IMG/VR virus record: IMGVR_UViG_3300025128_000440
Location: 1 to 20,593 of that record
Length of the DNA: 20,593 bases
Origin: a virus
Strand: one strand, 5' to 3'
Shown: positions 6,601-20,162 of the stretch, in pieces
Layout: each line of letters begins with the position of its first letter
Position numbering within the stretch: position 1 is the first letter of the stretch
Made by a program: the position numbers and the translations under genes
Notes under the pieces: generated by a model
Databases searched by the model: none
Seen by the model: the letters and a program-made list of their open reading frames with translations, nothing else
Told to the model about the DNA's origin: nothing

Positions 6601-7791
6601 TTTAGAACCATGTTTAATAATGTTAATGCTGGAACCGAAAATGGAGATACCCTTCTTAAATCTTTTATAACTGGTCTCGATGATGCAAGTGCTGAATTAA
6701 TGAGCCCATTCATAGCTGAATCTATTTGGACTCAAGCAATGGGAGACATTATAATGAGAGGTGGTCGAACTAAAGATGGGAGATTACTTTATACAGATCA
6801 AACTTCAGCTGGAGATAAAGCAAGAATTAGAATAGCTCACGCTTGGAAAGCTATTCAACCTGGAGGAATTGCTCAATATAAAAGATTAGGACAATCGTTG
6901 TTCGAACTTCCAACTAAAAGAGGAAAATTCCTAGAGGGTAAAACACTAGGAATGAATGATGAAGTATTAGGTTTAATGGGATTAAGACCAATATCTATTG
7001 ATCCGATGGACGCAATGGGTTTTAAAATTTCAAATTTTCAAAGTGGAATTAGAAATGCGCGAAGAGAATTTACGGGAGGCTTCTTTGGATTATTAAGAGG
7101 AGGTTCTATTGATCCAAATGATATTATAACAAGATATATTGCTTCTAATAAAGCAAGATTTGCGACTCAAAAAGAAATGTATAAAGATTTAGAAGCAGCC
7201 GGTATTCTTGGAACTAGTCGCTTAAACTTACTTAAAGCATTTAGAGAAAGACAAATGAGTCCTACTACCTTTAATAATTTAATGAAAGGTAAGTTCATGC
7301 CTTACTTCCCTTCAAAGGATATCATTGGAAGATTTAGAGAGATTGCACAGAACATAGGAGAACCCAATGCATTCTTACAAGCGCGATCAGAATTAAAAAA
7401 TCTAGAGCAGGACTATAAAAATAATTTTAATTTAGCTGAGGGTTTTGCTACCGGGGGAGCAGTAGATGGAATTAAAAGTGATGATGCAATCACTGAAGCT
7501 CTTCCTGTTCTTAAAGCTATTGATAATGACTTAAATACCTTAAGCTTAGATGATGAATGGGACATTGATGTTAAAGATTATATTGTAGAAGAACAAGAAG
7601 AAATTGTTACACCACCCTTACCTCAAGCAGTCACATCAGCTCAACCTAATCCACAAACCATCACGCAGGGCCAAGCAATGCAAGGGGCTCAAACTAATTT
7701 ATTACAAAGTGGATTGACACCAACGGAAGAAGCTTATTTAAGTAATGAAGAAAAAATAATGAGAAGAAAACAAAGAGGTATAATAACCTAA
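3637..7791 (+). CDS. Very large putative internal virion / DNA ejection protein (1384 aa)
   Basis: At 1384 residues this is the largest gene in the window. It starts at ATG 3637, about 8 bases after a GAGG sequence (3625-3628). The N-terminal 130 residues are Ala/Gly-rich and helical, with weakly hydrophobic stretches that could lie against membranes. Long charged helical regions follow. A conserved-looking central block lies around residues 645-700 (MWLYRNFLLVPKATAQLAK then VPTHIRNFLSAGAFAG). The C-terminus is acidic, then proline/glutamine-rich, and ends in LTPTEEAYLSNEEKIMRRKQ, a tail signature I recall from related phages. Near residue 1270 there is a TGG motif recalling the GGR motifs of the 436-1785 protein. 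The size, helical nature and place after an Ala/Gln-rich protein fit T7 gp15/gp16-type ejection proteins. I see no lytic transglycosylase motif. The role is inference. Confidence 0.6.
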   Translation: MAIVPLNPTEENNEVSWYKAGAAGVASGVLKVPEGIFSLAAELIDLGADTDTAADVERFFDKLNPFEEVAEERAIGKLTEALVQIGIPGAYGFKLGQRLASGAIKAKKAGKYANVGSKNSVRAQVKADRLNQKAGMKRFAAGVMGGAAGETFVADIEDIGSFGDIFDTGPTQLDREEWTEGGREDAARKLLNRLKFGSESILITPFVFGATTAAKGLARQGKDLAYSNSKFLRWVDKYIGMPFRPRSGMTEEVAESTWLKENLIAKDQLRAKQIVTNLTREVSKIFPDMQITMDKSLSGEKTAFLKEMNELLFEGNIREGTLDGKKLTKLLDGLKGKKISKDSRKNIFEGLDAARNEFARLIELLEKNTKGVVLKDGVKSIKEILKDRFNKYIGNTYKIFEDKGILGFKKYGPSDEAMANAVNLFRRMIAKDSGTTLSANKPNQYYQEAKEIVDDLVKQVAASSKKPGPLPDLAYSLKTAQGQTLKEFEKYSFKAAKGKGSKVLRELFGEIQDPRYSIFNATTTLSAMGRMTNYLDNLYNTNKMIQAPVAAGGKGERGAFWNSRQEAMKGTNNVLDPKDIVSLDPLMGRLTSFKDEVGEKLLNPLKGMYTTRAIYNALANANGITGGLAGVVRGRKDASSAEQMTMWLYRNFLLVPKATAQLAKTVLSVPTHIRNFLSAGAFAGANGILFEGIKNPRMMKDAFSYALNTSGVAGLRGRKEAFEELYREGIEYGVFNTQVQMSDLKNLMRDVKWGADIGNTDAILRPMLARLKGMGAWAQGKYVAEDDFWKGTTWFVERHRYRKAYDKAFAEGKIPRRVTDNEIKAITAKLVKNNVPNYAYVGDFVKNSRVLPFGNFMSFPSEMIRTTGNIAETAMKEMKHSKAVRGSDVTPVVWEVGKGWVKNDNPLYEIGAMRLAGMATTLTVVPTAVVEGAKALYDVSEDEINAMRRFVPEWSKNSTLVPIRDDETGELKYMDFSHTNAYDIIARPFRTMFNNVNAGTENGDTLLKSFITGLDDASAELMSPFIAESIWTQAMGDIIMRGGRTKDGRLLYTDQTSAGDKARIRIAHAWKAIQPGGIAQYKRLGQSLFELPTKRGKFLEGKTLGMNDEVLGLMGLRPISIDPMDAMGFKISNFQSGIRNARREFTGGFFGLLRGGSIDPNDIITRYIASNKARFATQKEMYKDLEAAGILGTSRLNLLKAFRERQMSPTTFNNLMKGKFMPYFPSKDIIGRFREIAQNIGEPNAFLQARSELKNLEQDYKNNFNLAEGFATGGAVDGIKSDDAITEALPVLKAIDNDLNTLSLDDEWDIDVKDYIVEEQEEIVTPPLPQAVTSAQPNPQTITQGQAMQGAQTNLLQSGLTPTEEAYLSNEEKIMRRKQRGIIT

Positions 7792-8003
7792 TGGATATCA
7801 AACCTAAAACTACACGAGAGCATATTATATCCCTATATGGTCATATTAAAGGATTGAAGAAATCACAGTATCATATGCATAATGGAATTCATGAATTGGG
7901 TGGCAAGATAGACAAGATCTATTGGGTATTATTAGGCACGGTGGGGGCTGTGTCCTTAGTTCTTTTGGAAAGAGTGCTGGATATCAAGGGTATTATTTTT
8001 TAA
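7791..8003 (+). CDS. Small phage protein with one C-terminal membrane segment
   Basis: The protein has 70 residues. The first 45 are polar and probably helical or coiled (TTREHIISLYGHIKGLKKSQ, then HMHNGIHELGGKIDKI). One transmembrane segment follows (about 46-64, WVLLGTVGAVSLVLLERVL) with a short tail. This soluble helix plus single-TM plan is shared with XhlA/hemolysin-type and some holin-like phage proteins, and I recall the TTREHI...LYGHIKG opening from marine phages. Its ATG overlaps the TAA of the 1384-aa gene (TAATG), and it ends the forward structural operon. It could help lysis, membrane attachment or DNA entry; the sequence does not decide. No endolysin lies next to it. Confidence 0.6.
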   Translation: MDIKPKTTREHIISLYGHIKGLKKSQYHMHNGIHELGGKIDKIYWVLLGTVGAVSLVLLERVLDIKGIIF

Positions 8004-17624: not shown

Positions 17625-18275
17625 ATGGCTTACCTGAATGCGAACATCCCTGTGACTTATGCACAGATCAGGAGAGAATATCTCTATGATCTTAAGAAGC
17701 ATCACGGGGAAGTTGAAGACTGCATTATCTTTGGGTTGGCAAGTATTACAGGACGTCCGATCCTCTTTCATGCTATTATGGAAAACGGTGCTGTGTTCTA
17801 TCGTTTACCTATTTCAGCCTTCATACAAAGGGGATTTGACGTCAAAGAAGTTCCTAGGATGCGACTGGACGAGTTGGAGCTTTGGAATTGTTTTAGTTAC
17901 TATCCTGCTGTTACTTCTTATGACATCTTAGATGCCCAATCAGGGAAATTTTTTGGAAAAGATAAAAAACTCCACCCAGGAGCGTATCTTTTTACTGTTG
18001 ACTGGGCCCACCCAGAGAGTAATATAATAGATACAGATCATTCTGAGATTCCACACGAACATAAGTGTGCACATATATTAGCCTTAGATAATGGTAATTA
18101 TGCAGCTCAACCTAATAATAGAATTCTTTGGGACATACCATCGTTCACAGTAAAAAACGAAGTTCCCGATTGGAAGGTTCAGACTTCAGAATGGAATGTA
18201 GAAGATACGCGTAAATGGAGAACTGAAGATACAGATAATTTCTTTTACGAAATTGAGGAGAAGAAAAATGATTAA
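17625..18275 (+). CDS. Conserved marine phage protein of unknown function (216 aa)
   Basis: I recall this family from uncultured marine phages without any assigned activity. The N-terminus MAYLNANIPVTYAQIRREYL opens a compact domain. It continues with LYDLKKHHGEVEDCIIFGLA, FHAIMENGAVFYRLPISAF and ELELWNCFSYYPAVTSYDIL, then a His/Asp-rich VDWAHPESNIIDTDHSEI and PHEHKCAHILALDNGNYAAQ. Histidines and acids in the middle third could bind a metal, but no known motif forms. The C-terminus is charged (TEDTDNFFYEIEEKKND). No Shine-Dalgarno sequence precedes ATG 17625, which lies nine bases after the previous stop, so re-initiation is likely. The stop overlaps the Cys-rich gene start at 18268. The function is unknown, but the ORF is long and clearly real. 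Confidence 0.75.
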   Translation: MAYLNANIPVTYAQIRREYLYDLKKHHGEVEDCIIFGLASITGRPILFHAIMENGAVFYRLPISAFIQRGFDVKEVPRMRLDELELWNCFSYYPAVTSYDILDAQSGKFFGKDKKLHPGAYLFTVDWAHPESNIIDTDHSEIPHEHKCAHILALDNGNYAAQPNNRILWDIPSFTVKNEVPDWKVQTSEWNVEDTRKWRTEDTDNFFYEIEEKKND

Positions 18276-18435
18276 ATGTAAACAATGTGGACATGATTGC
18301 CATTGTGATCCAGACTCTTGTAAGGATGGATGCATATGTGTAGATTGTAATTGTAAAAAAAATAAACAGGAGCAACCAGTGAAAAAAACTATTTGGAAAA
18401 AATTTGTAGATTGGTTATTTGCGTGGCAAAAATGA
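18268..18435 (+). CDS. Nine-cysteine metal-binding-like miniprotein (55 aa)
   Basis: Starting at ATG 18268 with GAGGAG eight bases upstream, the protein has nine cysteines in its first 29 residues (4, 7, 11, 13, 18, 22, 24, 27, 29) and two histidines. They lie in a dense C-x-C, C-x2-C, C-x3-C pattern around DPDSCKDGCICVDCNCKK. This resembles metallothionein-like or multinuclear zinc-binding peptides more than a single zinc knuckle. The C-terminal 17 residues (KKTIWKKFVDWLFAWQK) form an aromatic, basic amphipathic helix suited to lie on a membrane. It overlaps the previous stop and, by ATGA, the next start. The role is unknown; metal storage, redox sensing or a membrane-bound adaptor are options. 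Confidence 0.65.
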   Translation: MIKCKQCGHDCHCDPDSCKDGCICVDCNCKKNKQEQPVKKTIWKKFVDWLFAWQK

Positions 18436-18617
18436 TAAATGACAAAATTATCGCCACACTCCTTACTATTCTCCTTGCTCTTGGAGGATGGACGCTTTCA
18501 CGCACCTTCTCCCTCTCCCAAGATATGGTCCTTATCAAGGAAAAAGTATCACAATTGGAGGAAAAAATTGATAGCAAGTTTAAAAAGAAAAAGAAGAAAA
18601 AAAAGAAAGCCAACTGA
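18432..18617 (+). CDS. Small TM plus coiled-coil protein with polylysine tail (61 aa, first copy)
   Basis: From the ATGA overlap at 18432, the protein has one membrane helix (about 6-20, IIATLLTILLALGGW), then SRTFSLSQDMV, a short heptad-like helix (LIKEKVSQLEEKID) and a tail with nine lysines in a row. It is a paralogue of the protein at 18798-19055: ILLALxGWxLSRTFxLS is shared at 14 of 17 positions. The next gene, a lipoprotein, begins inside its 3' end in the +1 frame, an arrangement reminiscent of Rz/Rz1 spanins. The soluble part is short for an inner spanin, and the basic tail predicts a cytoplasmic C-terminus, which speaks against it. The start is not ambiguous; the role is open. Confidence 0.7.
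   Translation: MINDKIIATLLTILLALGGWTLSRTFSLSQDMVLIKEKVSQLEEKIDSKFKKKKKKKKKAN
18557..18561 (+). promoter_or_regulatory. Shine-Dalgarno site deciding a TTG start
   Basis: GGAGG is followed after six A residues by TTG 18568. It lies inside the upstream coding region and marks the likely start of the overlapping lipoprotein gene, better than other in-frame options. Confidence 0.55.
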
Positions 18618-18801
18618 AAAAGCAATACAGGCTTTGATAATTGGCCTAGTGTTGGCTCTGGTACTTTTAGCTGGATGTAATTACAAAATGGTTCCATCCG
18701 AAACAAAAATAGAGTATGGTACCACAGAAACAGACTCTAAGAATAATAAGCTGCAGCAAAAGCAGTCTATTACTCAGACCTGGAAATGGAAACAACAATG
18801 A
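18568..18801 (+). CDS. Small lipoprotein overlapping the preceding membrane gene
   Basis: From TTG 18568 the protein has 77 residues: a highly basic n-region (about residues 5-19, KRKRRKKRK), a hydrophobic helix (LIIGLVLALVLLAG, 23-36), and a lipobox LAGC with the cysteine at 37. The mature part is about 40 residues, polar (KMVPSETKIEYGTTETDSKN then QSITQTWKWKQQ). The lipobox is a good match to signal peptidase II sites. The basic n-region is unusually long; an internal TTG at 18634 would shorten it but has a poorer ribosome site. The stop overlaps the next ATG (18798, ATGA). Small outer-membrane lipoproteins encoded across a TM-protein gene resemble Rz1 outer spanins; this is context only. 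Confidence 0.65.
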   Translation: MIASLKRKRRKKRKPTEKAIQALIIGLVLALVLLAGCNYKMVPSETKIEYGTTETDSKNNKLQQKQSITQTWKWKQQ

Positions 18802-19055
18802 TTGAAAAATTAATGACAATGCTAGTGGGAATTTTGTTGGCGTTAGCCGGATGGAGTCTTTCTAGAACTTTTGAACTTTCTACTATCCAGGCAGTGCATG
18901 AAGATAAAGTACAGAGAATTCAAGCACAAGTTTTAAAACTAGAAGATCAGATGGATAAAATGATGGACTCTGATGAAGAGATCATGGACCAACATAAAAA
19001 ATTATTTGAAGCTCTAGAATCAAATCAACCTTCAACAGGATATAGTTATAACTAA
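18798..19055 (+). CDS. Small TM plus coiled-coil protein (85 aa, second copy)
   Basis: I start this at ATG 18798, which overlaps the lipoprotein stop (ATGA), rather than at 18786 four codons upstream. A membrane helix (about 5-19, LMTMLVGILLALAGW) is followed by SRTFELS, then a coiled-coil segment (AVHEDKVQRIQAQVLKLEDQ to about residue 72). The tail SNQPSTGYSYN follows. It is paralogous to the protein at 18432-18617 across the membrane segment but has a longer, acidic, non-polylysine soluble part, which would allow a periplasmic C-terminus. Its stop overlaps the start of a second lipoprotein gene (TAATG at 19053-19057), repeating the TM-protein-then-lipoprotein order. The inner spanin role is a hypothesis. 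Confidence 0.7.
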   Translation: MIEKLMTMLVGILLALAGWSLSRTFELSTIQAVHEDKVQRIQAQVLKLEDQMDKMMDSDEEIMDQHKKLFEALESNQPSTGYSYN

Positions 19056-19216
19056 TGAAAAAATTATTATTAATCTTATCCTTACTTGCATTCACTTCCT
19101 GCGTTGCAGTGGGACCAAAATGTACTTACACACAAGAAGGAACAAAAATTGAGTCTTGGGTTTGGGTTTTTCATGGTGGAAAACCGGCTGATGTAGACAA
19201 AATGAATTGTAACTAA
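19055..19216 (+). CDS. Small lipoprotein (53 aa)
   Basis: The gene has a classical short signal: a basic MKK, a hydrophobic stretch LLLILSLLAF, and a lipobox-like FTSC with the cysteine at residue 16. The -3 Phe and -1 Ser are less usual than Leu and Gly/Ala. The mature part of 38 residues contains two further cysteines (23 and 52), which could pair, and GTKIESWVWVFHGGKPADVD. The ATG overlaps the stop of the TM protein before it (TAATG), so this is the second TM-protein/lipoprotein pair in a row. Only weak likeness to the first lipoprotein is visible (TKIE). A partner role with the membrane protein is inferred from coupling. Confidence 0.65.
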   Translation: MKKLLLILSLLAFTSCVAVGPKCTYTQEGTKIESWVWVFHGGKPADVDKMNCN

Positions 19217-19218
19217 TT

Positions 19219-19533
19219 ATGGAACTAGCAAAAGCAAGAAGCACTGAAGAAATTATTAAAGACATTAAAGCTACTTTAGAATCTAAAGTAAAAGATAATG
19301 TGGCAGTTCATGGAGGAGAGATTAATTTTCTTTCTTATGAAAAAGGTATTGTAAGACTACAAATGGCTGGAGCGTGTTCAGGCTGTGCCATGAGTAAAAA
19401 AACTCTTCAAGAAGGTGTAGAAAGATTACTTACTCACTATGTTCCTGAAGTAATAGGTTTATTAAGTGAAGATGATCATGAAGCCAAACACAAAGGTTAC
19501 ACACCTTATTTTCCAAAGGAATTAAATGTCTAA
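19219..19533 (+). CDS. NifU-type Fe-S cluster scaffold domain protein
   Basis: The protein has 104 residues: essentially one NifU C-terminal-like domain, with LESKVKDNVAVHGGEINFLS, then IVRLQMAGACSGCAMSKKTL, EGVERLLTHYVPEVIGLL and a polar tail. The diagnostic CxxC (C53, C56 in GACSGC), which binds a bridging Fe-S cluster, is intact, so it is probably active. Stand-alone domains of this kind receive a cluster and pass it to client proteins. In a phage it would support host Fe-S assembly or mature an Fe-S protein during infection, an auxiliary metabolic role. It starts two bases after the preceding TAA with no strong ribosome site and overlaps the next gene. Family firm, client unknown. Confidence 0.92.
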   Translation: MELAKARSTEEIIKDIKATLESKVKDNVAVHGGEINFLSYEKGIVRLQMAGACSGCAMSKKTLQEGVERLLTHYVPEVIGLLSEDDHEAKHKGYTPYFPKELNV

Positions 19534-19741
19534 TAAACCCTTATCAATTTCAGACGAAGCAAAAGTTCAAATGCCGATGAAAACGGTAGCCTCACTGATC
19601 GCGATGGTCGCGATTGGAACCTGGGCATATTTCGGAATCATTGAGTCGCAAAATCGGATGGAGACAACTCTAAAATTAATGGAAACCGATGTGGTCGAAA
19701 ATACGGAATTCCGTATCAAGTGGCCGAGGGGGCAACTGTAG
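19526..19741 (+). CDS. Membrane-anchored phage protein, N-terminal part, possibly split by frameshift
   Basis: The 71-residue product has a polar N-terminus (SNKPLSISDEAKVQMPMK), a TM helix (about 20-37, TVASLIAMVAIGTWAYFGII) and a helical stalk that runs to TEFRIKWPRGQL before TAG at 19739-19741. I recall related marine phage proteins in which WPRG is followed within two residues by GSLPAD and a coiled coil. Here GSLPADSEQF sits in the -1 frame just downstream. Leaving out the two bases TA at 19739-19740 would join the frames as WPRGQLGSLPADSEQF. This is therefore probably the first part of a longer gene, broken by a 2-base insertion, read through by recoding, or affected by a sequencing error. 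Confidence 0.6.
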   Translation: MSNKPLSISDEAKVQMPMKTVASLIAMVAIGTWAYFGIIESQNRMETTLKLMETDVVENTEFRIKWPRGQL

Positions 19742-19956
19742 GCAGTCTTCCGGCTGACTCAGAACAATTTATGATGATCGAGGATCTTTACAAGACCACC
19801 GACAAATTAATTAAACATATTGAGTCTATGGCTTTGAATAAAGTCAACATAGAATTTTTAACAAAACAAATGGAAAAAGTTTTAGAAGATATTGAAGAAT
19901 TAAAAGATGCTAGTAGAGATATGCATTATAAAAATGGAAACAAGGAGATATTTTGA
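19720..19956 (+). CDS. C-terminal coiled-coil part of the membrane protein (-1 frame)
   Basis: The frame contains VGSLPADSEQFMMIEDLYKT then a long charged helix (LTKQMEKVLEDIEELKDASR) and a polar tail. A possible GTG start at 19720 would give 78 residues, but no Shine-Dalgarno sequence precedes it. The resemblance of the junction to homologues I recall suggests it is the second half of the gene at 19526. Its stop overlaps the next start (TTGA at 19953). If really separate, it would be a soluble coiled-coil protein without membrane anchor. Confidence 0.5.
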   Translation: MAEGATVGSLPADSEQFMMIEDLYKTTDKLIKHIESMALNKVNIEFLTKQMEKVLEDIEELKDASRDMHYKNGNKEIF

Positions 19957-20162
19957 CCGAGGTTGTTTTTGCCCTACTGATGTTTATAAACGGAGAAATT
20001 AAGGAACACCGTATCCAACCCTCGATGGGAATGTGCCTTCGTGGGAAACGTGAAGCAGAGAGAACCTACAGTGAAACTGTATCTTATAAATGCATTAAGA
20101 CTAAGGCTGAAACTGAGATATATATGGGCGAAAAAAGTATTAAAAAAATAATCCTTGAATAA
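19953..20162 (+). CDS. Small secreted or membrane-associated phage protein (69 aa)
   Basis: The start is TTG 19953, five bases after AGGAG (19943-19947), and it overlaps the previous stop. The protein opens with a short hydrophobic stretch MTEVVFALLMFINGEIKEHR, which may be a signal or a strand. Two cysteines follow (28 and 47) in MGMCLRGKREAERTYSET and VSYKCIKTKAETEIYMGE, then a Lys/Ile-rich end. The pattern of hydrophobic start, NGEIKEHRI and two Cys is one I recall from small proteins of marine phages. Cys pairing would imply export. No function is assigned. The TTG start with a strong ribosome site, and the tight spacing, support translation. Confidence 0.65.
   Translation: MTEVVFALLMFINGEIKEHRIQPSMGMCLRGKREAERTYSETVSYKCIKTKAETEIYMGEKSIKKIILE

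Follow-up and report, generated by a model that had tools for sequence, protein, structure and literature searches.

A strictly linked membrane protein and lipoprotein gene pair in a pelagiphage HTVC027P-like contig as a candidate two-component spanin

Gene content of the locus

The window analysed here is the whole of a 20,593-base contig from IMG/VR virus record IMGVR_UViG_3300025128_000440, which is incomplete. The DNA polymerase A encoded in the window shares 76% identity with that of Pelagibacter phage HTVC027P, and the HTVC027P gene order (primase, helicase, polA, a PurM-annotated gene, E and G) is kept. By sequence, the window can be classed as an HTVC027P-like pelagiphage contig. Four small genes, here called A, B, C and D, lie on the plus strand between the PurM-annotated gene (17625) and the genes E, F and G (19526-20162).

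Gene A (18432-18617, plus strand) begins in an ATGA overlap with the preceding gene and encodes a 61-residue protein with a single transmembrane (TM) segment, a short amphipathic helix and a C-terminal polylysine tail (KKKKKKKKK). It is a candidate i-spanin. Inside gene A, a Shine-Dalgarno sequence, GGAGG (18557-18561), stands 6 nt upstream of the TTG start codon (18568-18570) of gene B, the two together occupying 18557-18570 on the plus strand. The aligned B homologues begin with ATG or TTG at the corresponding position, also with a Shine-Dalgarno sequence. Gene B (18568-18801, plus strand) lies in the +1 frame relative to A, shares 50 nt with it and encodes a 77-residue lipoprotein precursor with the lipobox LLAGC and a mature part of 41 residues, a candidate o-spanin. 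Gene C (18798-19055, plus strand) is joined to B by an ATGA overlap and encodes an 85-residue protein with a TM segment and an acidic coiled coil. Gene D (19055-19216, plus strand) has 1 nt in common with C and encodes a 53-residue lipoprotein with the lipobox FTSC and two invariant mature cysteines (KCTYTQEGTKI..NCN). The four open reading frames, their frames and their overlapping junctions, including the start of B inside A in another frame, are exactly as the first-pass annotation had described them.

Several features of the surrounding genes were observed. The PurM-annotated gene (17625-18275) is named phosphoribosylaminoimidazole synthetase in GenBank pelagiphages, whereas its match in PHROGs is phrog_3704 'ferredoxin' (E 5.6e-77); it had no match in Pfam. 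A small Cys-rich protein with an amphipathic C-terminus, S0 (18268-18435), recurs directly before A, C or D in the relatives. Between D and E lies a gene for a NifU-like C-terminal domain (19219-19533; PF01106, E 2e-20); this optional passenger follows B, C or D in a few relatives. A 70-residue protein with an N-terminal helix and a C-terminal TM segment is encoded at 7791-8003; its layout is XhlA-like and it had no PHROG match. E and F (19526-19956) correspond to one protein (phrog_20984) in two frames, which is intact as gp15 in HTVC027P. Such splits were also observed in L030, L033, L039, L052, L068, L086, L095, L123, L124, L127, L189 and L196, and they fall at two recurrent sites: GAGGGGGCAACTGTAG, which needs a -1 shift and is the type found in the window, and TTACCCCGCTGA, which needs a +1 shift. 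In three contigs the stop is lost and the +1 shift is still needed. Programmed frameshifting and recurrent decay are both possible explanations of the E/F split.

Association of the four genes across related loci

The comparison set comprised approximately 300 IMG/VR loci gathered by searching for relatives of A, B, C and D. B relatives were also gathered by B profiles, and all families were mapped on the loci with local HMMs. Neighbours were counted on 142 distinct loci, and co-occurrence on 53 distinct complete spans reaching from the PurM-annotated gene to G.

The neighbour counts showed that B lies directly after A in 47 of 54 distinct A loci and that A lies directly before B in 47 of 52 B loci, the remaining B loci being tandem copies or remnants without the cysteine. 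Within the complete spans, A and B were found together in 29 of 29 cases and A was never found without B. B without A was represented only by four lipobox-less remnants (L100, L123, L124 and L125), and the L125 locus also carries a broken A. As for C and D, 22 complete spans had C but lacked D, 17 had D but lacked C, and 12 had both. The gene after C was E in 45 cases and D in 10 of 75 distinct loci, and D was preceded by S0 in 45 distinct loci and by C in 10 of 81. Given that the loci were gathered with these same genes, spans with neither C nor D are under-sampled, and the claim is therefore limited to the lack of a positive association between C and D.

Taken together, the neighbour counts and the co-occurrence in complete spans show that A/B is a real unit and that C/D is not a pair. 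The locus had previously been read as two successive pairs of a TM protein and a lipoprotein. The A-B order proved to be conserved across contigs and the C-D order did not, with C often occurring alone without a lipoprotein neighbour and D often without C; what survives of the two-pair reading is that the TM gene was duplicated (A and C). A role of C/D as a second spanin is ruled out by the neighbour statistics, as the obligate linkage of TM protein and lipoprotein was not found. The apparent tandem is thus corrected to a duplicated TM gene and a mobile lipoprotein that adjoin through shuffling.

The membrane protein A and its lysine tail

Hydropathy and the family alignment place one TM segment at the N-terminus of A. 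No member of the family contains a cysteine, nothing similar was found in the PDB, and no homologue was detected in cultured phages at E<=1. Against phrog_739 'Rz-like spanin', 9 of 17 members gave a match (best E 8.8e-5).

The polylysine tail, which the first-pass annotation had noted, is no peculiarity of this contig but is conserved across the whole A family. The last 20 residues of every A contain 9-15 lysines and arginines (mean 10.5), compared with 2.1-5.7 in the other families. The tail is present both where B overlaps A and where the two genes are separated (L008 and L044). It is thus retained in its own right, and the separated pairs rule out that it results from the overlapping frame. 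The net charge of A is approximately +9 after the TM segment and 0 before it. Charges near the TM segment are balanced, and the +9 resides in the distal tail. Under the positive-inside rule, a polylysine tail favours a cytoplasmic C-terminus, and in that case A could not reach B. The cationic tail therefore makes the orientation of A uncertain, and A might act in the manner of a disruptin or a holin.

A could accordingly be a cationic membrane-active peptide or a holin-like effector whose tail does the damage while B regulates or localises it, the tail acting either from the cytoplasmic side or, like a disruptin, on the outer membrane. The tail composition of every A, even where B does not overlap, and the charge difference across the TM segment would fit such an effector, and disruptins, which are short cationic amphipathic peptides, are known to take the place of spanins in some phages (PMC12819732). 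However, no lipoprotein accompanies disruptins, whereas B is strictly linked to A, and a separate two-TM holin-like gene is already present in the same cassettes. We consider both variants of this explanation unlikely.

C as a paralogue of A

The relationship between A and C that had been noticed in the motif ILLALxGWxLSRTFxLS was borne out and is not due to chance. The residues are identical at 14 of 17 positions and the DNA at only 30 of 51 nucleotides; tblastn of C against A gave E=1.7e-8, and the family profiles align over the N-terminal 46 residues (hhalign E=7e-16). C has 358 relatives in IMG/VR, and its acidic coiled coil and terminal GYSYN are conserved. In cultured phages, nothing was found at E<=1 except an irrelevant weak match in Citrobacter.

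The complete spans include C without A/B and C without D. Where C stands alone, no lipoprotein is encoded nearby, and in some of these spans a third small lipoprotein lies 2.5-3 kb downstream. This third lipoprotein family has a mature part of approximately 20-30 residues with a DxNPxTTI motif and is located approximately 2-3 kb downstream of G, both in loci that carry A/B and in others (for example, L060 8705-8869, L039 5026-5232, L026 8685-8879 and L007 4090-4209). Judged by the profile comparison, C is a paralogue of A and a separate neighbour that is not obligately paired with a lipoprotein.

The coiled coil of C raises the question of whether C, in a classical N-in/C-out arrangement, is the functional partner of B, with A as an accessory. 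Where C is present, the order seen most often is A-B-C (25 of 52 distinct B loci), and 11 of 12 C members match phrog_739 'Rz-like spanin' (best E 1.7e-4). Yet 12 complete spans carry A and B without C, 17 carry C without B (12 with C only and 5 with C and D), and intact B is always together with A. A B-C partnership is thus highly improbable.

The lipoprotein B: start layouts and mature domains

The commonest start of B is an ATG with a Shine-Dalgarno sequence, 67 nt short of the end of A; elsewhere B starts 7 nt after A, and a few starts lie at -3 to -13 relative to the end of A. The same mature domains occur in the overlapped and the separated layouts. An A-B fusion by programmed frameshifting in the A-rich tract was rejected, as B is found in all three frames relative to A and is preceded by a Shine-Dalgarno sequence of its own.

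The lipobox cysteine, which belongs to LLAGC in the window, is invariant in the families, and approximately 21 relatives have a non-canonical lipobox with S or T at -3, which weighs against the spanin reading. The mature part is of at least three unrelated kinds on one signal-peptide framework. One kind reads YKMVPxETKIEYGTTETDSKN...WKW and has the relatives CPDKTTVE and TTLE; another reads GARHS/GVKH/RHSIGI...KxxYKIIFG, and the two groups align together in the signal peptide only. The types of A and B partly mix, with RTF-type and TTVG-type A each accompanied by YKMVP, GARHS and CPD lipoproteins. Unrelated mature domains that are swapped on one signal-peptide and TM framework, with both layouts in one family, illustrate how such pairs evolve.

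Two further arrangements were observed. B occurs in tandem in L018 (3431-3770) and L126 (4690-5029), where the first copy stops two residues into the mature part (..LAGCS*) and the second encodes a complete mature domain behind a different signal peptide; this looks like an intermediate of signal/domain exchange. In L133 (6285-6854) and L171 (3228-3788), A is followed by a B-type N-terminus with a long secreted C-terminal part in place of the lipoprotein domain (KNEYLG.NWR.C...), which loosely resembles HTVC027P gp14.

Beyond the signal peptide, B showed no sequence relationship to known o-spanins, and it matched nothing in the PDB. Among phages, the second type of B matched only the metagenome-derived KT997847. 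B and D share little, as had been stated earlier, and their being duplicates is ruled out (hhalign probability 18%, 8 columns).

D as a mobile lipoprotein

At least 103 relatives of D were found in IMG/VR, and their mature part is nearly invariant (KCTYTQEGTKI.SW.WF..P.DLDK.NCN). The neighbours of D vary and include S0, A, C, E, terminase/portal genes and a holin-like gene; in other phages, it sits between terminase and portal genes or after a holin-like gene. These varied positions identify D as a mobile single gene. A bacterial origin was rejected, as no relative was found in 84,980 GTDB genomes, and cultured phages gave no match at E<=1. D is thus a phage-only mobile lipoprotein, a separate neighbour and not a partner of C.

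Full-length D weakly matched phrog_1119 Cor in 18 of 24 members (best 0.0028), and its top match in the PDB was T5 Llp (E 0.32). These weak matches come from the signal peptide and disappear once it is removed, and homology to Cor or Llp is thus not supported. The AlphaFold model of D is a low-confidence hairpin (pLDDT 64). The exclusion lipoproteins T5 Llp, Cor and Rtp45 (PMC9586334; PMC12685063) are, like D, small stand-alone phage lipoproteins, and the two conserved mature cysteines of D count as a further likeness, whereas the mature part of D alone matches neither Cor nor Llp. A role of D in superinfection exclusion is a reasonable guess and no more, prompted by its two cysteines and its occurrence as a stand-alone lipoprotein of phages.

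Lysis genes in the neighbourhood of A/B

The location of A and B in the relatives was considered with respect to lysis genes. Two kinds of endolysin were identified, LYZ (PF00959, E 7e-14) and M15 (PF08291, E 1.8e-12; phrog_894 endolysin). A further gene, HOL, belongs to phrog_2524, which is annotated as of unknown function; its two TM segments and its synteny suggest a putative holin. In cultured pelagiphages, HOL adjoins an M15 peptidase (HTVC010P and Greip) or a lysozyme (HTVC033P), and in HTVC010P, E and G lie a few genes beyond HOL.

In L120, an M15 peptidase, a two-TM holin-like protein and a small TM protein precede A and B, while in KT997847 (Autographiviridae, Chosvirus) the order is holin-like protein, A, B and small TM protein. 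Other arrangements are M15-HOL-E-G-A-B (L168 and L320), A-B-S0-LYZ-HOL (L282), LYZ-HOL-E-C-G-A-B (L237 and L242) and A-B-C-E-G-M15 (L044). Overall, an endolysin or HOL was located within 3 kb of A/B in 36 of 141 distinct loci, and in 11 of the 23 with full 3-kb flanks. This lysis context in relatives is the strongest evidence for a spanin-like A/B.

The window itself, an incomplete contig of 20.6 kb, contains neither an endolysin nor a holin. This agrees with the first-pass annotation, which had seen no adjacent endolysin; no endolysin of the M15 kind is present anywhere in the window. In several HTVC027P-like contigs, the M15 gene lies approximately 10-11 kb upstream of C in contig coordinates, and its absence near A/B, as in the window, is therefore ordinary. 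The cultured relatives compared here have no annotated lysis gene past the endolysin.

The setting in the window and its close relatives, where A/B adjoins the replication-side genes polA and the PurM-annotated gene and no endolysin is adjacent, could also point to an envelope system with a role outside lysis, for instance in receptor masking or superinfection exclusion, that travels as a moron in a late cassette. The swapping of at least three unrelated kinds of mature B, as expected under antagonistic selection, and the variable genes around the pair (D and the NifU-like gene) would agree with this. However, A/B repeatedly adjoins the holin-like gene and an endolysin of the M15 or lysozyme kind in several distinct genome backgrounds, and the known exclusion lipoproteins Llp, Cor and Rtp45 do not need the obligate TM partner that B has. 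A function outside lysis is, on balance, improbable, slightly more so than a cationic effector.

A/B as a candidate two-component spanin

Phages of SAR11-type bacteria are among the most abundant in the sea. To our knowledge, the means by which they break the outer membrane has not been established. A/B is a concrete candidate for that step, present at no fewer than 141 distinct loci and with two kinds of endolysin cassette, and it is testable in E. coli.

A/B is probably a small two-component system for outer-membrane disruption that works like a phage spanin. The strict co-occurrence of A and B, their overlapped and separated layouts, and their linkage to endolysins and a putative holin make a two-component spanin the best explanation. 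The reduced spanin-like pair that had been proposed from the window is supported on these grounds for A/B and fails for C/D. In the proposed mechanism, A would be anchored in the inner membrane by its one TM helix, presumably with the N-terminus inside and the C-terminus outside, and B would receive its lipid at the lipobox cysteine and be delivered to the outer membrane. The endolysin would first remove the peptidoglycan. The A-B pair would then make contact, bridge the envelope and destroy the outer membrane as the last step of lysis.

The short soluble parts, earlier held to be an objection to a spanin, do not count against it. Their summed length is approximately 37+41 (about 78) residues in the window and 58-120 in 102 distinct pairs, with a median of 85 that lies within the 62-300 periplasmic residues published for two-component spanins (PMC6139136). 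With respect to cysteines, the periplasmic counts in A/B are 0/0 in the window and in 75 of 102 pairs, and 0/2 in the other 27, the latter being the commonest pattern among known spanins (PMC6139136). B in the window has no cysteine besides the lipidated one and so lacks a feature that is general, not absolute, in spanins: of 526 surveyed, 505 had at least one cysteine and 21 had none (PMC6139136).

A bolder reading, which we regard as possible but doubtful, is that uncultured marine phages have in A/B a modular system for outer-membrane lysis that had not been described before. In such a system, a polylysine-tailed anchor would serve unrelated, exchangeable lipoprotein effector domains, and the cationic tail, rather than a coiled coil or disulphide, would engage the outer membrane or its lipopolysaccharide. 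Compared at the sequence level, A/B is a candidate spanin variant without relation to known ones; its conserved lysine tail and exchanged mature domains are unusual, and the mechanism itself is perhaps not new.

Comparison with known systems

The genes gp13 and gp14 of HTVC027P occupy the same slot as A-D, between the PurM-annotated gene and E. gp13 has a TM segment and a coiled coil and gp14 has an N-terminal signal; gp14 differs in being a 177-residue secreted-type protein without a lipobox, and neither protein has a sequence match to A, B, C or D. The Rz-like spanin family phrog_739 resembles A and C in its TM and helical segment. This match is weak and dominated by the TM segment and coiled coil, and the length of 122 residues differs from the 61-85 of A and C.

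Unlike known spanins, A has a conserved polylysine tail and a very short soluble helix, the window A/B has no periplasmic cysteines, B cannot be aligned to known o-spanins, and B carries three or more unrelated mature domains on its common signal-peptide framework. In other respects, A/B corresponds to described pairs. Lambda Rz/Rz1, P2 LysB/LysC and T4 PseT.3/PseT.2 (Kongari et al. 2018, PMC6139136) likewise consist of a single-TM protein that is followed or overlapped by a small lipoprotein in another frame, and the mature part of B, at approximately 40 residues, is Rz1-like. Overlapped and separated layouts occur within one family in both A/B and two-component spanins, the known spanins of both layouts having conserved mature lipoprotein domains (PMC6139136). 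As in the relatives of A/B, the gene pair of two-component spanins is found with an endolysin and a putative holin, and the T4 spanin shows the same pattern of 0 and 2 cysteines as the CPD-type A/B relatives.
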